DNA of 64,000 nt from Geothrix sp. 21YS21S-2. Its GTDB lineage: Bacteria; Acidobacteriota; Holophagae; Holophagales; Holophagaceae. Numbering within the stretch: position 1 is the first letter of the stretch; each line of letters starts with the position of its first letter. The DNA lies in NCBI RefSeq assembly GCF_030846775.1, contig NZ_CP132910.1:1-64000 (forward strand). The letters are read 5' to 3'. The translations under genes were made by a program, and so were the position numbers. Below are positions 2,423 to 27,901 of this stretch, piece by piece. The notes under the pieces were generated by a model that saw only the letters and a program-made list of their open reading frames with translations, was not told the DNA's origin and did no database searches.

Positions 2423-2453
2423 CGATTCATGATGTGAATCGTGGCAATTTTTT
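2423..2453 (+). terminator. Rho-independent terminator after the MoxR/RodZ-like operon
   Basis: A 7 bp perfect stem (CGATTCA at 2423-2429 and TGAATCG at 2435-2441) with a 5-base loop is followed within 6 bases by a run of six T residues. It lies 28 bases after the stop codon of the upstream gene. Confidence 0.75.
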
Positions 2454-2676
2454 CCCGGAGCCTTGTATCATCCGGGGGAAATCTGGGAAGAATGGCGTAT
2501 CCATTAGGGAATTGGGCCATCCCACCCGTGAATATTTTCCCTGCACAAAGAACGCAGCAGTCCTTCTCTTACCTGATTCTCATGGCGACTTTGGAATTCC
2601 CCACCGAGAAATCAGCAGCCTTCGCGGAAAACCCGGACCCTGGACCCGCCACCAGCCCTGGTTACACTGGAACGCT

Positions 2677-3714
2677 ATGGACGAGGCCTCCCGAGATTCC
2701 GCACATGCGCCGCTGAAGGCCTTCCAGGACATGGTTTCCACCGGACCGCCCGAAGCGGCCGCCCTGGACCGGGTTCTGAAAATGCTTGAGCTGGAAGGCC
2801 AGCTCGAACACGCCCTGGCCCTCCTCCGCCTCGCGGGGCCGGCCTGGGAGCCCGTGCGCGCGCGGCTCCGGGCCGACGTGGCCACCTCCAGGGCCCGCCG
2901 CATGAACCGCTGGCAGACGGATCCCAACCGAAGGACCCTCCGGCTCCGCTTCGCCGTCTCGGAGCCCGCGTGCGGGCAGCACCCGCCGGCCCTGGCGTCC
3001 CAGCTGGCCCGGGCCATCCTGGACGCGGGGCTCCCGCTTGCCATGGGCCTCGAGAAGGTGCCCCGGCCCGCCCTGCATCTGGGGCACCCGCTGCCCCTGG
3101 GCGTTCCCGGCCGGGGGGAATGGGCCGACGCGGTGCTGGCCCATGGGGCCGGGATGCCGCTTTCGGAACTGCCCGGCTGCATCAACGCCCACGCGCCGGC
3201 GGGCCTCACCGTCCTCCAGTGCGAGATCGTCCCCAACTACGCGTCGCCCGTGTCCGACCTGTGCCGCTCCGCCTCCTGGCGCTGGCAGTGCCCTGCGGAC
3301 CTGCTCGAGCGGGCCCTCTTCGCCACCGCGGAATTCATGGCCTCCGAACGCTTCGAGATGGAGAAATCCGGCAAGACCGGCGGCCACAAGGGCGTCAAGC
3401 GCGTGGAGATCCGCTCCCTCGTGGAGGCCATGGCCTGGAAGGACGGCGCGCTGGCCTTCACCACCCGCATCGCCTCCGGCCAGGCCCCCAATCCGCAGAA
3501 GCTCCTGGGGGCGATCCTGGGAGTCGATCCCGCCGGCGTCGCCTCCCTGGAGCGCACCGGGCTGCAGCTGGCCGCGGACCCGCGCCTCCTGGACGCCGAC
3601 CGCTACGAACCCAAGCTGCACAACATGTTCGAGGACGCCGTCCTGCTGGACGCCGGGTCCCACATCCGCATCGTGGACGGGGACGACGACGATCCGATCA
3701 TCCTGGGCGGGTAG
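2677..3714 (+). CDS. DUF2344 (TIGR03936-type) radical-SAM-associated protein
   Basis: The protein has 345 residues counted from the ATG at 2677. A longer frame runs back to 2434, but that part crosses the terminator region and reads as non-coding. From about residue 75 it matches the DUF2344 pattern: RRTLRLRFAVSE, then two Leu/Ala-rich helices (LASQLARAILDAGLPLAMGLEKVPRPALHLGHPLPLGV), and LPGCINAHAPAGLTVLQCEIVP. In most bacteria this domain is encoded beside or fused to a radical SAM protein, often next to rng and rplU. Neither partner is present here. The C-terminal tail is acidic (VDGDDDDP). The function of the family is not established. Confidence 0.65.
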   Translation: MDEASRDSAHAPLKAFQDMVSTGPPEAAALDRVLKMLELEGQLEHALALLRLAGPAWEPVRARLRADVATSRARRMNRWQTDPNRRTLRLRFAVSEPACGQHPPALASQLARAILDAGLPLAMGLEKVPRPALHLGHPLPLGVPGRGEWADAVLAHGAGMPLSELPGCINAHAPAGLTVLQCEIVPNYASPVSDLCRSASWRWQCPADLLERALFATAEFMASERFEMEKSGKTGGHKGVKRVEIRSLVEAMAWKDGALAFTTRIASGQAPNPQKLLGAILGVDPAGVASLERTGLQLAADPRLLDADRYEPKLHNMFEDAVLLDAGSHIRIVDGDDDDPIILGG

Positions 3715-5505
3715 CTACTTCGCCCTGCCGAAGTTGTATTCGAGGGTCATCCAGCCCGTGGTGGGCTTGCCGTTCTTCGTGGCCGGGGCGTAGCCCGAGG
3801 CCAGGGCGGCGTTCTGCGCGGCGTCGTTGTAGCCGAAGGGCCCGGCCACGCCCTGCACGATGACCACCTTCACGGGGTGTCCCTGGGCGTCCACGAAGAT
3901 CTTCAGGATCACCTTGATGTCGCTGTCCCGGACATTGGCGGGCAGGAAGGCCTTGTTGGCGATGCGGGGCGCCGTGGGGCTGACGCGGCGCACGAGGGCG
4001 GCGGGCGTCTCCACCGCCTCCTGCTGCGCGGGCGCGGCGGCCGCGGGGGGCGGCGCCTGGGGCGCGGGAGTGGCCACCACCGCCGGGGCCGGGGCTTCCT
4101 GCTTGGCGGGGGCCGGCGCCGGCGGCGGCGCGGGCTGCGGCGCGGGCGCGGCCTTCTGGGCGTTGAGGGCGATGGTGTTGCCCTGGTTGGTCAACTCCTG
4201 CTGCTTCTTCAGGGCCTCGTCCTTCTGACGGCCCAGTTCCAGGGCCTTGGCCTTGGATTCCTCCAGGTCCTTCTTCGCCTTGGCGCGCTCCTCGGTGGTC
4301 TTGGCCTCCGTTGCCTTCTTGGCGAGCTGCTCCTGCAGGATCCTCTGGGACTCCTCCTGCTTGGCGATGTCCATGAGCTTGTTCTCGTTCGCCGCCTTCA
4401 GCTGCTGGAGTTCGGCGAGCTTGACCTGGATGGCGTTGTTCTCGGACCGGAGCTCGCGGTACTTGTAGCCGAAGAATCCGAGGATGGCCACGGCGGCCGC
4501 GCCGGCGTAGACGAAGTACTTCACCCGGCTCTGCCCGTCGGCGTTGACCAGGACGCTGCGCGACGCGCCCTCGGAAGGCAGGAACGGCGTGTAGTCCACG
4601 CCCTGGTCCGCCTTCATGGACTGGCCGTCCTGTTCGGCCTCCTCGCGGAAGAGCGTATGCATGTAGAAGGCCATGTTGAAGGTGGTGGGGCTGTAGTCGC
4701 CGTCGTAGAGGACGCGCTCGAGCTCCTTGTTGAATTCGCCCATGGAAGGGAAGGCGGAGGGGTCCACCAGCAGCCGGTTCAGGAGGCCCGCGATCTCGGC
4801 CGGAAGGGGGCCGTCCTCCATGGCCGCCTTCAGCGTGGCGCGGGACAGCGCCGCGGGGATGGCTTCAGGCGCGGGGAGCTTCTCCAGGGTCAGCAGCTCG
4901 AAGAGCACGGCGCCCAGGGCGAAGAGGTCCTGCTGCAGCGGGCTCCTGGCTTCCGGCGCGCGGTAGGGGGCGAGTTCCTTTTCCAGCCCCTTGGCCTTGG
5001 GCAGGAGCCCCGCCAGGATGCCGGCGTAGGGCGCGTCGACGATCTGCGTGGCGCCTTCGAAGCTCACCCAGATGCTGTGGGGGCTCAGGGCGCCGTGGTG
5101 GAGATCCTTGGCGGCCAGCGCCATGAGGGACATGGCCAGGCCCTGGATCACGGAAAGGGAATGGTCCACCCCCAGGGGGATCTGCTCCTCGCGGGTCTTC
5201 CTCAGCACCTGCGCCAGGCTGCGCCCGGGCACGTAGTCGCAGACCACGTGGGGCGTCCTGCCGGGCTCGGCATGGTAGTTGGCGCCGAAGCCGCGGCTGC
5301 CGGCGAGGATTCCGGCCACCCGCGCGGCCTCCCCCATGCGGGCGCCGATGCCGGCGTCCACGAGCTCGTCGGTGAACGTCCGCAGCAGGTGGTGCTTCTC
5401 GAAGGCGCTGCCGGAAAGGGAGAGCCCGCGGTGGATCCTGCCGATGGGGTCGGCCGTGAGTTCACTGGAAAGCATGTACGAGCCGAGCCGGGTATACGAG
5501 GCCAT
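3715..5505 (-). CDS. Pseudokinase with transmembrane helix, coiled coil and TonB C-terminal domain
   Basis: The protein has 596 residues. The start was placed at the ATG at 5505 because GGAG lies six bases upstream; an in-frame ATG four codons earlier has no such site. Residues 1-270 have a Ser/Thr kinase fold outline, but the catalytic loop that normally reads HRDLKPxN is HGALSPHS (137-144) and the DFG position is DAP (157-159). The VAIK lysine and glycine loop are also unrecognisable. A transmembrane helix follows at about 330-350, then a long Lys/Glu/Gln-rich coiled coil, a Pro/Ala-rich spacer and a TonB-like C-terminus (SDIKVILKIFVDAQGHPVKVVIVQG). The topology predicts a cytoplasmic kinase-like domain and a periplasmic TonB domain. 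It probably binds a ligand or partner rather than phosphorylating it. Confidence 0.8.
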   Translation of the reverse strand: MASYTRLGSYMLSSELTADPIGRIHRGLSLSGSAFEKHHLLRTFTDELVDAGIGARMGEAARVAGILAGSRGFGANYHAEPGRTPHVVCDYVPGRSLAQVLRKTREEQIPLGVDHSLSVIQGLAMSLMALAAKDLHHGALSPHSIWVSFEGATQIVDAPYAGILAGLLPKAKGLEKELAPYRAPEARSPLQQDLFALGAVLFELLTLEKLPAPEAIPAALSRATLKAAMEDGPLPAEIAGLLNRLLVDPSAFPSMGEFNKELERVLYDGDYSPTTFNMAFYMHTLFREEAEQDGQSMKADQGVDYTPFLPSEGASRSVLVNADGQSRVKYFVYAGAAAVAILGFFGYKYRELRSENNAIQVKLAELQQLKAANENKLMDIAKQEESQRILQEQLAKKATEAKTTEERAKAKKDLEESKAKALELGRQKDEALKKQQELTNQGNTIALNAQKAAPAPQPAPPPAPAPAKQEAPAPAVVATPAPQAPPPAAAAPAQQEAVETPAALVRRVSPTAPRIANKAFLPANVRDSDIKVILKIFVDAQGHPVKVVIVQGVAGPFGYNDAAQNAALASGYAPATKNGKPTTGWMTLEYNFGRAK

Positions 5506-5544
5506 TCCTGTCTCCATGGTGATGATAGGAAGATATCGAAAAGA

Positions 5545-6258
5545 CTAGTCCCTGGCTATGCTTTCATCGCCGGGGGCGTCCCACTGGTCGCCGACGGCCC
5601 GCCACAACTGGATCCAGATATTGGCGGTGCCGTTGATCCCATTGGAATAGGAAAGCTGGAGCTGGGCGAAGGGCACTGAAAGCTCGTCCCATCCCCCCTT
5701 CCTGCGCCCGGTCGCCTCGTCGAAGCATTCCTGGAGCGCCTGGTTGCGGTCGAACTTGACCTGCGCCCACTGCACCAGCCTGGGCCGGGGGTCCAGGGGA
5801 GACGTGACCGCCCAGAAGGGCTCCCGGCTCAGCACGAGCTTCGGAAGCTTCTCGTCGCCGTAGGCCTGGAACGACTCCCGCAGCGACGATACGCCCACCA
5901 CCGCCGAGGGGTCCATGAGGAGCTGGACCTGGTGGGCCAGGACGCCCAGCTCCCTGGCAATGCGCTCCGGCCGCTTGTGATCCTCCGTGAGGGCCACGAT
6001 GCGGCGGAACTGCTCCTCCACGTCCTCCACGGTGGGCACCTGGTCGTTGGCCTGCCCCCGCGCGCCGCTGACGAGCTCCCTCGCGTGGGTGGCGAGGAAG
6101 GCCGCCATGCGCTTGGGCAGGAGCCGGGCGGCCCGCCCTGTCTGCACTTCATGGAAGGCGGGGCTCCAGGCGCCCAGGGAGGCCCAAGACACGGCGAGGC
6201 AGGCGGCGACGTTGAAAAGGTGGTTTCGGATCACTTGGAATCCCGCATGAACAGCCAT
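5545..6258 (-). CDS. Hypothetical exported protein
   Basis: The protein has 237 residues from the ATG at 6258. An upstream GTG-free frame continues into comEC on the other strand and is not credible. The N-terminus holds one hydrophobic segment (HLFNVAACLAVSWASLGAW), which could be a signal peptide or anchor. The rest is mostly helical with no motif I recognise. Conserved-looking pieces are TVEDVEEQFRRIVALTEDH and WDELSVPFAQLQLSYSNGINGTANIW. It is transcribed away from comEC, and only 37 bases separate the two starts, so their promoters must overlap. Confidence 0.6.
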   Translation of the reverse strand: MAVHAGFQVIRNHLFNVAACLAVSWASLGAWSPAFHEVQTGRAARLLPKRMAAFLATHARELVSGARGQANDQVPTVEDVEEQFRRIVALTEDHKRPERIARELGVLAHQVQLLMDPSAVVGVSSLRESFQAYGDEKLPKLVLSREPFWAVTSPLDPRPRLVQWAQVKFDRNQALQECFDEATGRRKGGWDELSVPFAQLQLSYSNGINGTANIWIQLWRAVGDQWDAPGDESIARD

Positions 6259-6295: not shown

Positions 6296-9250
6296 ATGCT
6301 TTCCCGGGACGAACTTTGGCAGCGCCTGAGCGGCGACGGTTTCTGGGCCCTTCCCTGGGCCCTGGGGGCCGCCTGCGCCGTTCCGTGGGCCCTGCCGGAA
6401 GCCTGGGACGGCAGGCTCCCCCTGGGGGCGCGGCTGGCGGGGTGGGCCGCCGTGGCCTGTTCCCTGCCCCTGGCGCCGCGCCGGCGCTGGATCGGGCTCT
6501 GCCTGGCCATCGCCCTGGCCTGGGGCACCCTGGGCGGGCTGGGGCGCCTGGCCCGGTGGGAATGCGCGCTTCCCGCGGGGCCCGCGCGGATCCGGGGCGT
6601 CCTGGCGGCGCCCTGGGCGCTGCGGGGCCGCTCCCGGGCCGGGGCCCTGCGCGTCGAAGCGCCGGAGGCCCTGCGGGGCCTGGCGCTTCCCTTGGACCTT
6701 CCCGCCTCGGGCGTGCCGCCGCCCCCGCCGGGCACCCCCGTGGCCTTCGGGGCCGACCTCCAGCGGGTGGAGGCAGGCCCCGGGTTCCTCGCCGAGCGCC
6801 CGCGGTGGCGCGCCCGGGAGGCGGGGGCCCCCCGGAGGCTGCGCCTGCCCTCGTCCCTGGTGCTGGAGGTCCTGGGCCCGCCCCGGCCCTCCCCGCTGCT
6901 GGCGCTGCGCGCCTGGGTCCACGCGAGGTTCCTCGCGCTGCCGCTCTCCGCCCCGGCCCGGGACCTCTGGGGCGCCCTCACCCTGGGCATCCCTCCCGCC
7001 CACGGGGAGGCCTTCAGCCCCTTCGTCCAGAGCGGGACCATCCACACCCTCGTCGTCTCCGGACTGCAGGTGTCCCTCGTCATGGCGGGCCTGGAGGCCC
7101 TGTGGCGGCGCGCCCTGGGCCGCGGCAGCCCCGCCGCCGCCATGGCGGGGGGCCTGGCCTACTGCGCCCTGGTGGGGTTCACCGCCCCGGTGTGGCGCGG
7201 CTTCCTCATGGGCCTCGCCTGGGCCGCGGCCAGGGGCACCGGGTGGAAGGTCCCCCAGGTCGTGACCCTCCACGGCGCGCTGGTGGCGTGGCTCCTGGTC
7301 CACCCCGCGGCCGGGTGCGATCCCGGCTTCCTCCTGTCCTGGCTCGCCCTGACCGGCCTGCTGTGGGGCAGCCGCCCCCTGGCCGGGCTCCTGGGGCCGC
7401 TGGCGGGGCGATTCGCCGGGCCCCTGGCGAGGGTGCTGGCCCCCTGGCTCTCCACGTTGCCCCTGCTGGCCCTGTTCCACGGGGGCGCTCCCCTGTGGTC
7501 CGCCGCCGCCAACCTGGCCCTCCTTCCCGTGGTGGCCGTGCTGGCGCTCCTGTGCCTCGCCCTGGTCTTCCTGCCGGCGCCCTGGGCCGTGGCGCCCCTC
7601 GGCCACGTCCTGGCCTGGGTGGGCGGGACCCTGGTGCCCGCCTTCGCCCGCGTCGTCCCCCTCGCCACGGGCACCCTCTGGCCCTGGGCCGCCCTGGGCC
7701 TGGGCTGGGTCCTCCTGGCGCAGCTCCATGCCGGGTTCCGCCGCACCCGCTGGCTCACCGCGGCCCTGGTGGCGGGCTCCCTGGGTCTGCTGGCCTCCAG
7801 GGGCACCGGAAGCCCTCCCCGCGCCTTGAGCATCGAGGCCCTGGACGTCGGCCAGGGCGATGCCCTCCTGATCCGCGTCCCGGGCGGCGACGCCACCCTG
7901 GTGGATACCGGCCCCGACGCCGGCTCCGCCCGGAGGATCGCGCGGGTCCTGGCCCGGCGCGGCGTCCGGGAGCCCCTCCACCTCATCCTCACCCATCCCC
8001 ATCAGGACCACGCCGGCGGGTGGGAGGCCCTGGAGAGCCTCTGGCCCCTGGCCTCGGTGAGCCGGCCGGCCATGGCCCCGGCGAAGTGGGAGCCCTTCGG
8101 CGCCGCGCCCTCCCGGCTACGCGCCCTCCCGTTGCGCCGCGGCGACGCGTGGAACCGCGGCGGGGCCTCCTTCTCCGTGCGGTGGCCGCCGGGCCCCATG
8201 GCCCTGCGGGACGTGAACATGAACTCCCTCGTCCTGCGCGTGGCCTGGCGCGGCCGGGAACTCTGGCTCATGGGCGACGCCCTGGCCACCCAGGAGCGCG
8301 ACCTCCTGGACCTGGGGGACCCCGGTCCCCCCGCCCCCGGACGGCTCCTGAAGGCCGGCCACCACGGCAGCCGCAGCGCCTCCGGATCCGCCTGGACCGC
8401 GGCCCTGGACCCGCGGCTGGCCCTGGTGTGCGCCGGCCGCGGCAACGTCTTCGGCCACCCCCACCCCGAGGCCCTGGAAGCCCTGGCCGGCGCCCACCTG
8501 TTCGTCACCGGGGACTGCCTGGGCATCCGCGCCGAGGCCGTGCCCGCGGGCTGGCTCGTGGAGACGGGCAGGGGCCGGAGCCTCCTCCTGGCCTCACCGC
8601 CCCCCGAAGACCCCCAGCCCAGCCAGGCGCGCCATCAGCTCCCGGCTCACCCGCTCATGGTTCTCCCGCCACTCCCGGTGCGCCTCGGGCCCCACGCGGT
8701 TCGCCACCGCCAGCACGGCCCCGCAGGGCACGCCCGCCTCCGCGCAGGCCGCAAAGACCCCCGTGAGCTCCAGGTGCTCCACGGCCGCCAGCTCCCCCAG
8801 GCGCCGCGCCCCCTCCTCCGTGCGCGTAATTCCCGGCGGCACCGCCACGGAATGGGCCGGGAAGGGCAGGGCCGGCACGAGGGTCGCGGGCCACCGGACG
8901 ACTTCGATGGCCGGCCGGTAGGCCCGCCCCTCCAGCTCATCCAGGGAGATGGCCAGGGCCTCCGAGGCCCAGACGGCGTCCCCCGGCTGGAGCCGCGCGT
9001 CGTAGGACCCGCAGGTGCCCACGAACAGGACGCGTTCCGGATCCAGCTCCGACAGCAACCGAACGGTCGCCACCGCGGCCGTGAGCGCCCCGACGCCGGT
9101 GCAGGCCACCCGCCAGCCGGCGGGAGGGGTGGCGTCCCACCCGGCGAGTTCGGGGGGGAAGGCTGCGAGGAGGAGGGAGGGGCGGGGGGGCATGGGCCCA
9201 TGGTACGACAGGGCCTTGCGGGTTGCTCCGGTCTCCTGGCCCCCAAATGA
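6296..9250 (+). CDS. comEC: ComEC/Rec2 DNA-uptake channel (recognisable part ends near 8605)
   Basis: ComEC forms the inner-membrane channel that takes up single-stranded DNA during transformation. The N-terminus has several hydrophobic helices. The Competence domain follows from about residue 215 (LTLGIPPAHGEAFSPFVQSGTIHTLVVSGLQ), with many transmembrane segments. A C-terminal metallo-beta-lactamase domain starts near residue 515 (IEALDVGQGDALLIRVPGGDATLVDTGPD, then THPHQDHAGG and GHHGS). Homology appears to end at about residue 770 (base 8605). The frame then stays open for another 645 bases, exactly antisense to the nucleosidase gene, up to a TGA at 9248. The final 215 Pro/Arg/His-rich residues look like antisense translation. 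The real stop may have been lost, or there is a frameshift near 8600. Confidence 0.85.
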   Translation: MLSRDELWQRLSGDGFWALPWALGAACAVPWALPEAWDGRLPLGARLAGWAAVACSLPLAPRRRWIGLCLAIALAWGTLGGLGRLARWECALPAGPARIRGVLAAPWALRGRSRAGALRVEAPEALRGLALPLDLPASGVPPPPPGTPVAFGADLQRVEAGPGFLAERPRWRAREAGAPRRLRLPSSLVLEVLGPPRPSPLLALRAWVHARFLALPLSAPARDLWGALTLGIPPAHGEAFSPFVQSGTIHTLVVSGLQVSLVMAGLEALWRRALGRGSPAAAMAGGLAYCALVGFTAPVWRGFLMGLAWAAARGTGWKVPQVVTLHGALVAWLLVHPAAGCDPGFLLSWLALTGLLWGSRPLAGLLGPLAGRFAGPLARVLAPWLSTLPLLALFHGGAPLWSAAANLALLPVVAVLALLCLALVFLPAPWAVAPLGHVLAWVGGTLVPAFARVVPLATGTLWPWAALGLGWVLLAQLHAGFRRTRWLTAALVAGSLGLLASRGTGSPPRALSIEALDVGQGDALLIRVPGGDATLVDTGPDAGSARRIARVLARRGVREPLHLILTHPHQDHAGGWEALESLWPLASVSRPAMAPAKWEPFGAAPSRLRALPLRRGDAWNRGGASFSVRWPPGPMALRDVNMNSLVLRVAWRGRELWLMGDALATQERDLLDLGDPGPPAPGRLLKAGHHGSRSASGSAWTAALDPRLALVCAGRGNVFGHPHPEALEALAGAHLFVTGDCLGIRAEAVPAGWLVETGRGRSLLLASPPPEDPQPSQARHQLPAHPLMVLPPLPVRLGPHAVRHRQHGPAGHARLRAGRKDPRELQVLHGRQLPQAPRPLLRARNSRRHRHGMGREGQGRHEGRGPPDDFDGRPVGPPLQLIQGDGQGLRGPDGVPRLEPRVVGPAGAHEQDAFRIQLRQQPNGRHRGRERPDAGAGHPPAGGRGGVPPGEFGGEGCEEEGGAGGHGPMVRQGLAGCSGLLAPK
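8594..9193 (-). CDS. mqnB: Nucleoside phosphorylase-fold protein, probable futalosine hydrolase
   Basis: The 199-residue protein has the PNP/MTAN fold signatures. These are a GVG turn followed by an Ala-rich helix (CTGVGALTAAVATVRLLSEL), the base-binding VLFVGTCGSYDARLQPGDAVWASEAL, and a later acidic patch before LTGVFAACAEAGVPCGAVLAVANRVG. Length and the VGTCGSY and LQPGD pieces fit futalosine hydrolase (MqnB), which removes hypoxanthine from futalosine in the alternative menaquinone pathway. MTA/SAH nucleosidases share the fold, so the substrate is inferred. No other mqn gene is in the window. It converges on comEC and overlaps its open frame completely. Confidence 0.7.
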   Translation of the reverse strand: MPPRPSLLLAAFPPELAGWDATPPAGWRVACTGVGALTAAVATVRLLSELDPERVLFVGTCGSYDARLQPGDAVWASEALAISLDELEGRAYRPAIEVVRWPATLVPALPFPAHSVAVPPGITRTEEGARRLGELAAVEHLELTGVFAACAEAGVPCGAVLAVANRVGPEAHREWRENHERVSRELMARLAGLGVFGGR

Positions 9251-26643: not shown

Positions 26644-27459
26644 TCAGTTGCCCAGGTAGGTGAACCAGAACCTCACGCCCAGGGAACTCCCCTCGAACCC
26701 GTCCGGAAGCCTGGGCAACGGATCGGACCGGCGGACGGCCATCAGGGCGCTCTGGTCCATGTTCGCGTTCCCGCTGGGGATCTCGATGCGGGCGCCGTCG
26801 AGGCCGCCGTCCCTGCGGATGCGGAAGTAGATCTGCACCCGGCCCTGGCTGGAGGTGACGCGGTTCCAGTTTCCGGTGATCCGGCTCTGCACCTGCTGGA
26901 GGTACCACATGAAGGGGAAGTCGCCGTCCAGCTCCCCCACCAGGCCGGTGCCTCCGGCCACGCCGTTGGAGGCCTTGAGGCCGGGGATGCCCGTGGCCGC
27001 GCCGATGCCGCCCCCCCCGCCCGAGCCCGAGGCTCCGGTTGAAGGGTTGAGGCTGGGGGTCTTGCCTTTGGAGGCCACGGGGGCCTTGCCCATGCTGTCG
27101 GGATTGGTGCTGGTGCCCTGGAGGGGTTTGGAGGCCTTGGTGCCGAAGGCGTTGGGCGAGGCGTTGTAGCCGGTGGGCTCGCTGCGCTTGGGGGCCACCT
27201 CCTCCACCCGGCGCTGGCGCTCGCCCTCCTTGCCCTGCTCCAGGGGGCCTTCGCCTCCGGCCACGCCCTCGACGCCGGCGGCGGGGAGGCGCACCCAGGT
27301 GACCTTGGTCTCTTCGGGCGGGGGGGGCGCCTTGGGGGTGAAGAGGATGGCGCCCACCACCAGCACGTGGACGGCGACGCTCACGCCGATCCCCAGGCTG
27401 AGCCCCTGCTTGCCCAGCAGGGCCCGTTCGTGGAGGTAGGCGTAGAGTTCCTGGCTCAC
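26644..27459 (-). CDS. TonB-like energy transducer
   Basis: The protein has 271 residues from a GTG. A single N-terminal transmembrane helix (SLGIGVSVAVHVLVVGAILFT) is followed by a short Pro run, a low-complexity Gly/Ser/Lys spacer and a C-terminal TonB/TolA domain (YLQQVQSRITGNWNRVTSSQGRVQIYFRIRRDGGLDGARIEIPSG). It lies 7 bases after the exbD/tolR-type gene in the same direction, so the two act together. These proteins pass proton-motive force from the inner membrane to the outer membrane. No ExbB/TolQ gene is in the window; the third partner must be elsewhere. Confidence 0.8.
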   Translation of the reverse strand: MSQELYAYLHERALLGKQGLSLGIGVSVAVHVLVVGAILFTPKAPPPPEETKVTWVRLPAAGVEGVAGGEGPLEQGKEGERQRRVEEVAPKRSEPTGYNASPNAFGTKASKPLQGTSTNPDSMGKAPVASKGKTPSLNPSTGASGSGGGGGIGAATGIPGLKASNGVAGGTGLVGELDGDFPFMWYLQQVQSRITGNWNRVTSSQGRVQIYFRIRRDGGLDGARIEIPSGNANMDQSALMAVRRSDPLPRLPDGFEGSSLGVRFWFTYLGN

Positions 27460-27466
27460 CGGCGCC

Positions 27467-27901
27467 TCAGCGTTCCATGGGCTCGGATCCCGCGGGGGCG
27501 GTGGAGGCCGAGGTGACGAAGCCCACCTGGGTGAAGCCCGCCTCGCGGATGGCGTCGACCACCGTGATGACGCGCCCGTAGGGGATGTTGAGGTCGGCCC
27601 GGACCATGACGGGGCGCTTGCGGCTCTCCGCGGCGCGCTGGCGCAGCTGGGCCTTGAGGACGCCCTCCTGGACGAAGTGCTTCTCGAACTCGATGCGGCC
27701 GTCCCGGGCCAGGGTCACCACCAGGGCCTCGGATTCCAGGTTCTTCCCGGTGCGGCTCTCCGGGAGGTTCACGTCCACGCCGGTGGTGAGCATGGGGGCG
27801 GCCACCATGAAGATGATCAGAAGCACCAGCATCACGTCGATCATCGGCGTCATGTTGATATCCGCCATCTGGCCGCGCTTGGAACCGGGAGTGAATGCCA
27901 T
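27467..27901 (-). CDS. ExbD/TolR-family biopolymer transport protein
   Basis: The 144-residue protein begins with a cytoplasmic Lys/Arg stretch and the family signature [25 protein letters not shown], where the Asp in the membrane helix (IDVML) carries protons. The periplasmic domain contains VNLPES and [23 protein letters not shown]. It works with ExbB/TolQ and the TonB-like product downstream. ExbD and TolR cannot be separated by sequence alone. The ATG lies 50 bases from the divergent topB start. Confidence 0.92.

Follow-up and report, generated by a model that had tools for sequence, protein, structure and literature searches.

A major question raised by this locus is what a protein might do when a kinase-like domain that lacks its catalytic residues is joined, in one polypeptide, to a TonB domain. 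The window, by which we mean the whole 64 kb stretch analysed here, is the initial part of a single 5.25 Mb contig from a genome that its nearest named relatives place in Holophagaceae, and carries the gene on its minus strand. Two in-frame ATG codons are present: translation from position 5517 gives an ORF of 600 residues (3715-5517), and translation from position 5505 gives a protein of 596 residues (3715-5505). Since the ATG at 5505 is unchanged in 17 orthologs and has a GGAG upstream with normal spacing, 3715-5505 is likely the real extent of the gene. Residues are numbered from the ATG at 5517, which makes the ATG at 5505 residue 5.

The N-terminal part of the window protein is predicted to be a two-lobed protein-kinase fold. 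The AlphaFold2 model of this part (residues 1-320; 41 sequences) has a pLDDT of 92.5 and a pTM of 0.91, and the kinase fold together with the helices that follow it spans residues 9-294 (4636-5493, minus strand). RIPK1 (8e-11), PknB (1.5e-10) and PknA were the top Foldseek matches of the model, while VIA aligned it to MST3 (8qlq) over 255 residues with a Z of 23.3 and an rmsd of 2.8, MEK, CDK2 and TNIK ranking close behind. The relationship to kinases is weak when judged from the sequence of the window protein alone, for which Pfam PK_Tyr_Ser-Thr gave an E of 1.9e-4, under the cut-off, and PknA a weak match of 8e-5. It is clear, however, from the fold and from the relatives: Pfam Pkinase was found in 30 of 37 family proteins (36 members plus the window protein), with a best value of 4e-30.

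Inspection of the catalytic sites revealed substitutions at several of them. The HRDxKxxN motif is replaced by HGALSPHS (residues 141-148; 5074-5097, minus strand), in which H141 and G142 are conserved but the catalytic Asp and Asn are gone, Ala143 occupying the position of the HRD Asp. DAP (residues 161-163; 5029-5037, minus strand) takes the place of DFG: the Asp is retained as D161, FG has become AP, and both D161 and P163 are conserved among the Holophagaceae orthologs. The beta-3 (VAIK) lysine is replaced by Arg46 (5380-5382, minus strand), which is near-invariant in 41 Holophagaceae sequences. The Gly-rich loop is degraded, and residues 162-185, from DAP to the next conserved helix, are predicted to be helical without an ordinary activation loop. 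The HRD Asp and the beta-3 Lys, by which we scored a kinase as active, are both absent from the window protein. A pseudokinase was scored by the loss of one or more of beta-3 Lys, HRD Asp and DFG Asp, and with two of the three gone the sequence of the window protein marks it as a pseudokinase with a predicted loss of phosphotransfer.

Past the kinase part lies the sole membrane helix (residues ~332-350; 4468-4524, minus strand), which contains no His and no SxxxH. It is followed in the sequence by a long, charged, helical and coiled-coil-like stretch (residues 351-450; 4168-4467, minus strand) that evolves fastest of all parts, and then by a Pro/Ala-rich spacer (residues 451-505; 4003-4167, minus strand). 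The chain ends in a TonB C-terminal domain (residues 506-600; 3718-4002, minus strand), modelled by AlphaFold2 with a pLDDT of 89. Its best Foldseek match was 6i97_D, a TonB with FoxA (E 3.6e-4), and VIA gave a Z of 10.5 against the Neisseria TonB 9dc4_T (rmsd 2.3, 84 residues aligned), 9.1 against Pseudomonas aeruginosa TonB, and 6.2 and lower against TolA. Pfam TonB_C (PF03544) matched the window protein with an E of 1.4e-4 and 22.7 bits against a gathering score of 24.6, reached 26.1 bits, above the cut-off, in the genome search, and matched 33 of the 37 family proteins (36 members plus the window protein) at E values up to 0.01, the best being 5e-21. We regard the TonB fold of the modelled residues 506-600 as certain. 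Because of this fold we infer that the kinase part is in the cytoplasm and the TonB domain in the periplasm, the only sensible topology; the Lys plus Arg counts flanking the membrane helix (mean 2.5 before and 2.6 after) give no verdict. The first-pass annotation had proposed this arrangement of a cytoplasmic kinase-like fold, with HGALSPHS and DAP as degenerate catalytic sites, tied by a membrane helix, coiled coil and Pro/Ala spacer to a periplasmic TonB C-terminus, and the analysis upholds it, adding the substitution of the beta-3 Lys, a confident model that is kinase-like, and a genuine TonB fold. Two relatives (L018 and L025) carry two TonB C-terminal domains in tandem.

We then asked how widely this architecture is conserved, the first-pass annotation having suggested a search in other Acidobacteriota. 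Almost every member of the Holophagaceae that was searched, Geothrix species included, has a full-length ortholog, and the gene is intact in more than 50 genomes. When a profile of residues 190-302 was run against 396 genomes of the phylum, many Acidobacteriota families returned strong matches and the remaining families weak, general kinase-like ones; a plasmid search returned a single remote match, an Embleya kinase. We examined 36 members from 24 Acidobacteriota families and found the HRD Asp missing in every one; each of them has lost two of the three catalytic residues. Thus, members of at least 24 families share the pseudokinase-TonB architecture, and since the catalytic Asp is absent from all members examined, the alignments argue that the non-catalytic function is ancestral and that this is an old family, not a decayed gene. 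Comparison with the closest ortholog (89% identity) gave dN/dS values of 0.21 for the kinase part, 0.24 for the linker and 0.15 for the TonB domain, consistent with a working gene under purifying selection.

The genome encodes two related proteins. A paralog at 504,702-506,147 (L045) is more degenerate, reading VGALSLDS and PDLAW at the corresponding motifs, and has no Pfam match at all, but still contains the motif STFNLAHLMHTLFR and finishes in a TonB-like part. A second kinase-TonB fusion at 4,354,178-4,355,542 (L044:1178-2542, plus strand) has intact HRDIKPAN and DFG motifs, matches Pkinase (5.7e-39) and TonB_C (2e-7), and lacks the conserved motif described below; it may be a catalytically active kinase that ends in a TonB domain. 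One genome therefore harbours degenerate as well as intact-looking kinase-TonB fusions.

The protein's most conserved stretch phylum-wide is LYDGDYSPTTFNMAFYMHTLFREE (residues 270-293; 4639-4710, minus strand), a predicted helix beyond the C-lobe. This helix, with its conserved motif LYDGDYSPTTFNMAFFMHTLFREE, precedes the membrane helix, is near-invariant in Holophagaceae, and takes the form (S/D)G(E/D)Y(S/N)PTTFNLAFFMH in the phylum as a whole. When 37 remote members are aligned, six columns in total are invariant, including T279, F280, N281 and A283, and no Pfam model covering residues 270-293 was found in the search with the window protein. The stretch is better conserved than any remnant of the active site, as expected of a docking site, and we consider it a candidate, docking-like motif.

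Inspection of gene neighbours provided a functional context. Upstream of the pseudokinase gene, and ending 39 bp before its ATG, lies a gene for a 237-residue exported protein beginning AWSPxxHE (5545-6258, minus strand). This protein was found at 50 of 52 ortholog loci in addition to the window, encoded on the same strand and just upstream where contigs allowed, and it keeps an invariant H109 and several Trp residues. It has no Pfam family and no PDB relative below E 0.4, so that assignment to a known enzyme was rejected and the protein left unnamed; an anti-sigma assignment was likewise rejected, RseA_C reaching E 0.19 in one member. Its W-x-P-x-x-H start presumably resembles that of zinc-dependent phospholipase C and S1-P1 nuclease proteins, and its fold is perhaps a degenerate Zn-phospholipase/S1-P1-like one.

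Outside the Holophagaceae, 11 loci from 10 families (L155, L159, L160, L161, L163, L164, L166, L177, L178, L179 and L185) have ruvX-mltG immediately ahead of the pseudokinase gene and in the same orientation, the pair being identified by Pfam RuvX and YceG (E about 1e-80); at one further locus the pair is convergent to the pseudokinase gene. L160 has two pseudokinase genes in tandem with 5 bp between them, and genes for the ATP-synthase b subunit lie downstream in one family of the same class. Neighbours were clustered on mechanical ORFs, including shadow ORFs, and those quoted are Pfam-confirmed or curated by eye. MltG is a peptidoglycan transglycosylase that acts on nascent peptidoglycan, and the neighbours, ruvX-mltG and the exported protein, favour a context in the cell envelope over one in outer-membrane transport. 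The mltG linkage was not found in Holophagaceae, and in this genome mltG sits at 2.18 Mb, at a great distance from every member; for this particular gene, the envelope role therefore rests on homology, as inferred from the linkage in other families, where the adjacency could also be a passive, inherited gene order.

Other genes of the window merit mention. A DUF2344/TIGR03936-type protein (2434-3714, plus strand; E 3e-18, just below the NCBIfam cut-off) has an N-terminal part of ~190 residues ahead of the domain. A ComEC-like ORF of 984 residues (6296-9250, plus strand) resembles Geothrix ComEC only up to residue 764, and its tail is antisense to a nucleoside phosphorylase-family gene (8594-9193, minus strand), so the usual ComEC stop seems to have been lost, or a frameshift to have occurred. 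Part of a Tol-Pal cluster is formed by a TolA-like gene with SxxxH in its membrane helix (26644-27459) and TolR (27467-27901), side by side on the minus strand.

Our preferred reading, to which we give a probability of roughly 0.5, is that the pseudokinase-TonB protein serves the cell envelope as a scaffold in the inner membrane, without catalysis of its own. Its kinase-fold domain, in the cytoplasm, would no longer transfer phosphate; instead, the fold and the adjacent YSPTTFNxAFxMHTLFR helix would bind a partner in the cytoplasm or membrane, perhaps under the influence of a nucleotide or signal. The single membrane helix would relay this link to the periplasmic side. There, the coiled coil and the Pro/Ala spacer would extend the TonB-type domain towards a peptidoglycan or outer-membrane partner, probably in the service of cell-wall or envelope construction. 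Here, topology, partner binding and the envelope role are our interpretation of computed properties (the kinase and TonB folds, the loss of catalytic residues, the membrane helix, conservation, selection and neighbours). We favour the scaffold because the catalytic Asp is lost in all members read, the conserved motif is docking-like, the gene is under purifying selection, ruvX-mltG is linked and there are precedents for both halves. EssB/YukC of type VIIb secretion is a membrane pseudokinase acting as a scaffold, likewise degenerate throughout its active site and extending beyond the cytoplasm (PMC12599244), but it belongs to a Firmicutes secretion system and has no TonB domain, and no sequence relation to the window protein was found. 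In Anabaena, the TonB-like protein SjdR (TonB1) structures the peptidoglycan of the septum rather than powering transport, akin to the peptidoglycan role proposed here, although SjdR is exceptionally short and has no kinase fold (PMC8597729). Counting against the scaffold, the fold of the end domain resembles that of transport TonBs more than that of TolA.

That fold similarity bears on the alternative that survives best, which we see as possible with the odds against it: the protein would work with ExbB/ExbD or TolQ/TolR as a TonB, and the pseudokinase would gate or tune the energy passed to TonB-dependent receptors. The receptor-bound TonBs 6i97, 9dc4 and 2gsk are the nearest folds to the end domain, and the genome contains 4 matches to the ExbD family and 16 to the TonB-receptor plug. 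Ser16 and His20 of the TonB membrane helix mark an energy-transducing TonB (PMC12215075), and the D-box of TonB binds ExbD (PMC10907165). We sought the D-box by regular expression, as a Pro-flanked strand of alternating hydrophobic and polar residues right after the membrane helix. None of 80 members had a D-box-like segment there, where a long coiled coil stands instead, and none had SxxxH or any His in the helix. This argues weakly against a regulated TonB, since the genome's own TonB (L035, at 4.94 Mb and adjacent to two ExbD genes) likewise lacks SxxxH and D-box, and the D-box test is missed both by the genome's own TonBs and by TolA in the window, which does have SxxxH; the two marks thus discriminate badly in this lineage and do not refute energy transfer. 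Dedicated TonB and ExbD genes are, however, already present at 4.94 Mb, and no exbB/exbD or TonB-receptor gene was seen beside the pseudokinase gene at the loci examined. Membership among the PMF-driven TonBs is unproved, and the first-pass proposal that the protein tunes energy transfer gained no specific support.

Compared with energy-transducing TonBs (PF03544), the window protein shares the fold of residues 506-600, the Pro-rich spacer, one membrane helix and the presumed N-in orientation. It differs in having ~330 residues of kinase fold before the membrane helix and a coiled coil before the spacer, and in lacking SxxxH, a D-box and an exbBD neighbour. TolA also combines a membrane helix, a long helical stretch and a TonB-like end domain, but the end domain here fits TonB better (Z 10.5 versus 6.2 at most) and no tolQR adjoins the gene.

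A sensor, whose pocket would bind a nucleotide or metabolite and whose ligand would change the state of the membrane protein, is in our estimate doubtful. It would account for the near-invariance of Arg46 and D161 in the 41 Holophagaceae sequences, and a beta-3 Arg is fixed in ActPs2 pseudokinases too (PMC12599244), but the degraded Gly-rich loop speaks against it, as does the restriction of D161, most other families of the phylum having xGFx instead. The retained D161 could also belong to an atypical enzyme that still transfers some phosphate or acts as a different transferase, in the way of AMPylation by SelO and glutamylation by SidJ. Certain pseudokinases have indeed turned out to be enzymes (PMC12599244), yet we find this very improbable here, as the HRD Asp, loop Asn and beta-3 Lys are all substituted and the motifs vary from family to family within the phylum, as those of a conserved active site would not. 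Finally, the idea that the gene is a kinase-TonB fusion in decay, much like a pseudogene, of which the same genome carries an intact-looking example (4,354,178-4,355,542), is rejected with near certainty by dN/dS values of 0.15-0.24, intactness in more than 50 genomes and identical substitutions fixed across Holophagaceae.

Among other kinase-like systems, PknB and PknA are the nearest bacterial structures by Foldseek, and the PknB-type PASTA kinases likewise consist of a cytoplasmic kinase fold, one membrane helix and an extracytoplasmic sensor or anchor. NF033483 is matched by 33 of the 37 family proteins, the scores of the window protein being well below the cut-off. Unlike in PASTA kinases, the catalytic residues are lost here and a TonB domain stands in place of the PASTA domains; Pfam results for the window protein and the 37 family proteins contained no PASTA repeats. 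NCBIfam matches to MADS6/BREX kinases (2.5e-13 and 9e-6) were dismissed as general kinase similarity, being far below cut-off (49 of 460 and 24 of 990 bits). The pseudokinases ActPs1-3, GLW, CP1, DYD and DLHK have Ser/Thr-kinase-like folds with degraded VAIK, HRD and DFG motifs, but none is described with TonB or from Acidobacteriota (PMC12599244); this 2025 review of bacterial pseudokinase families contains no occurrence of TonB or Acidobacteria. Open-licence PMC literature yielded no description of a pseudokinase with TonB, of MltG with a pseudokinase, or of a Geothrix or Holophaga kinase-TonB protein. Kinase folds and TonB domains are thus known kinds; what appears new, though not proved to be so, is that the two are joined, together with an invariant motif, in a combination conserved throughout the phylum.

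A more specific version of the envelope reading, speculative and on balance improbable, is a phylum-wide system in which the YSPTTFNLAFFMH docking helix of an ancestral membrane pseudokinase would bind a cytoplasmic wall-synthesis regulator, while the TonB domain would target MltG or peptidoglycan and, under the control of a signal, restrain or guide the release of glycan strands, not serve nutrient uptake. The function of bacterial pseudokinases is mostly unknown and TonB domains are regarded as transport parts; this conserved fusion offers a concrete handle on both, through the partners of its invariant PTTFNxAF motif and of its TonB domain. Its members come from 24 or more families of a phylum dominant in many soils, and in ten of these its gene adjoins that of a peptidoglycan enzyme. 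If its TonB domain serves the cell wall, the known roles of TonB-type domains would widen.
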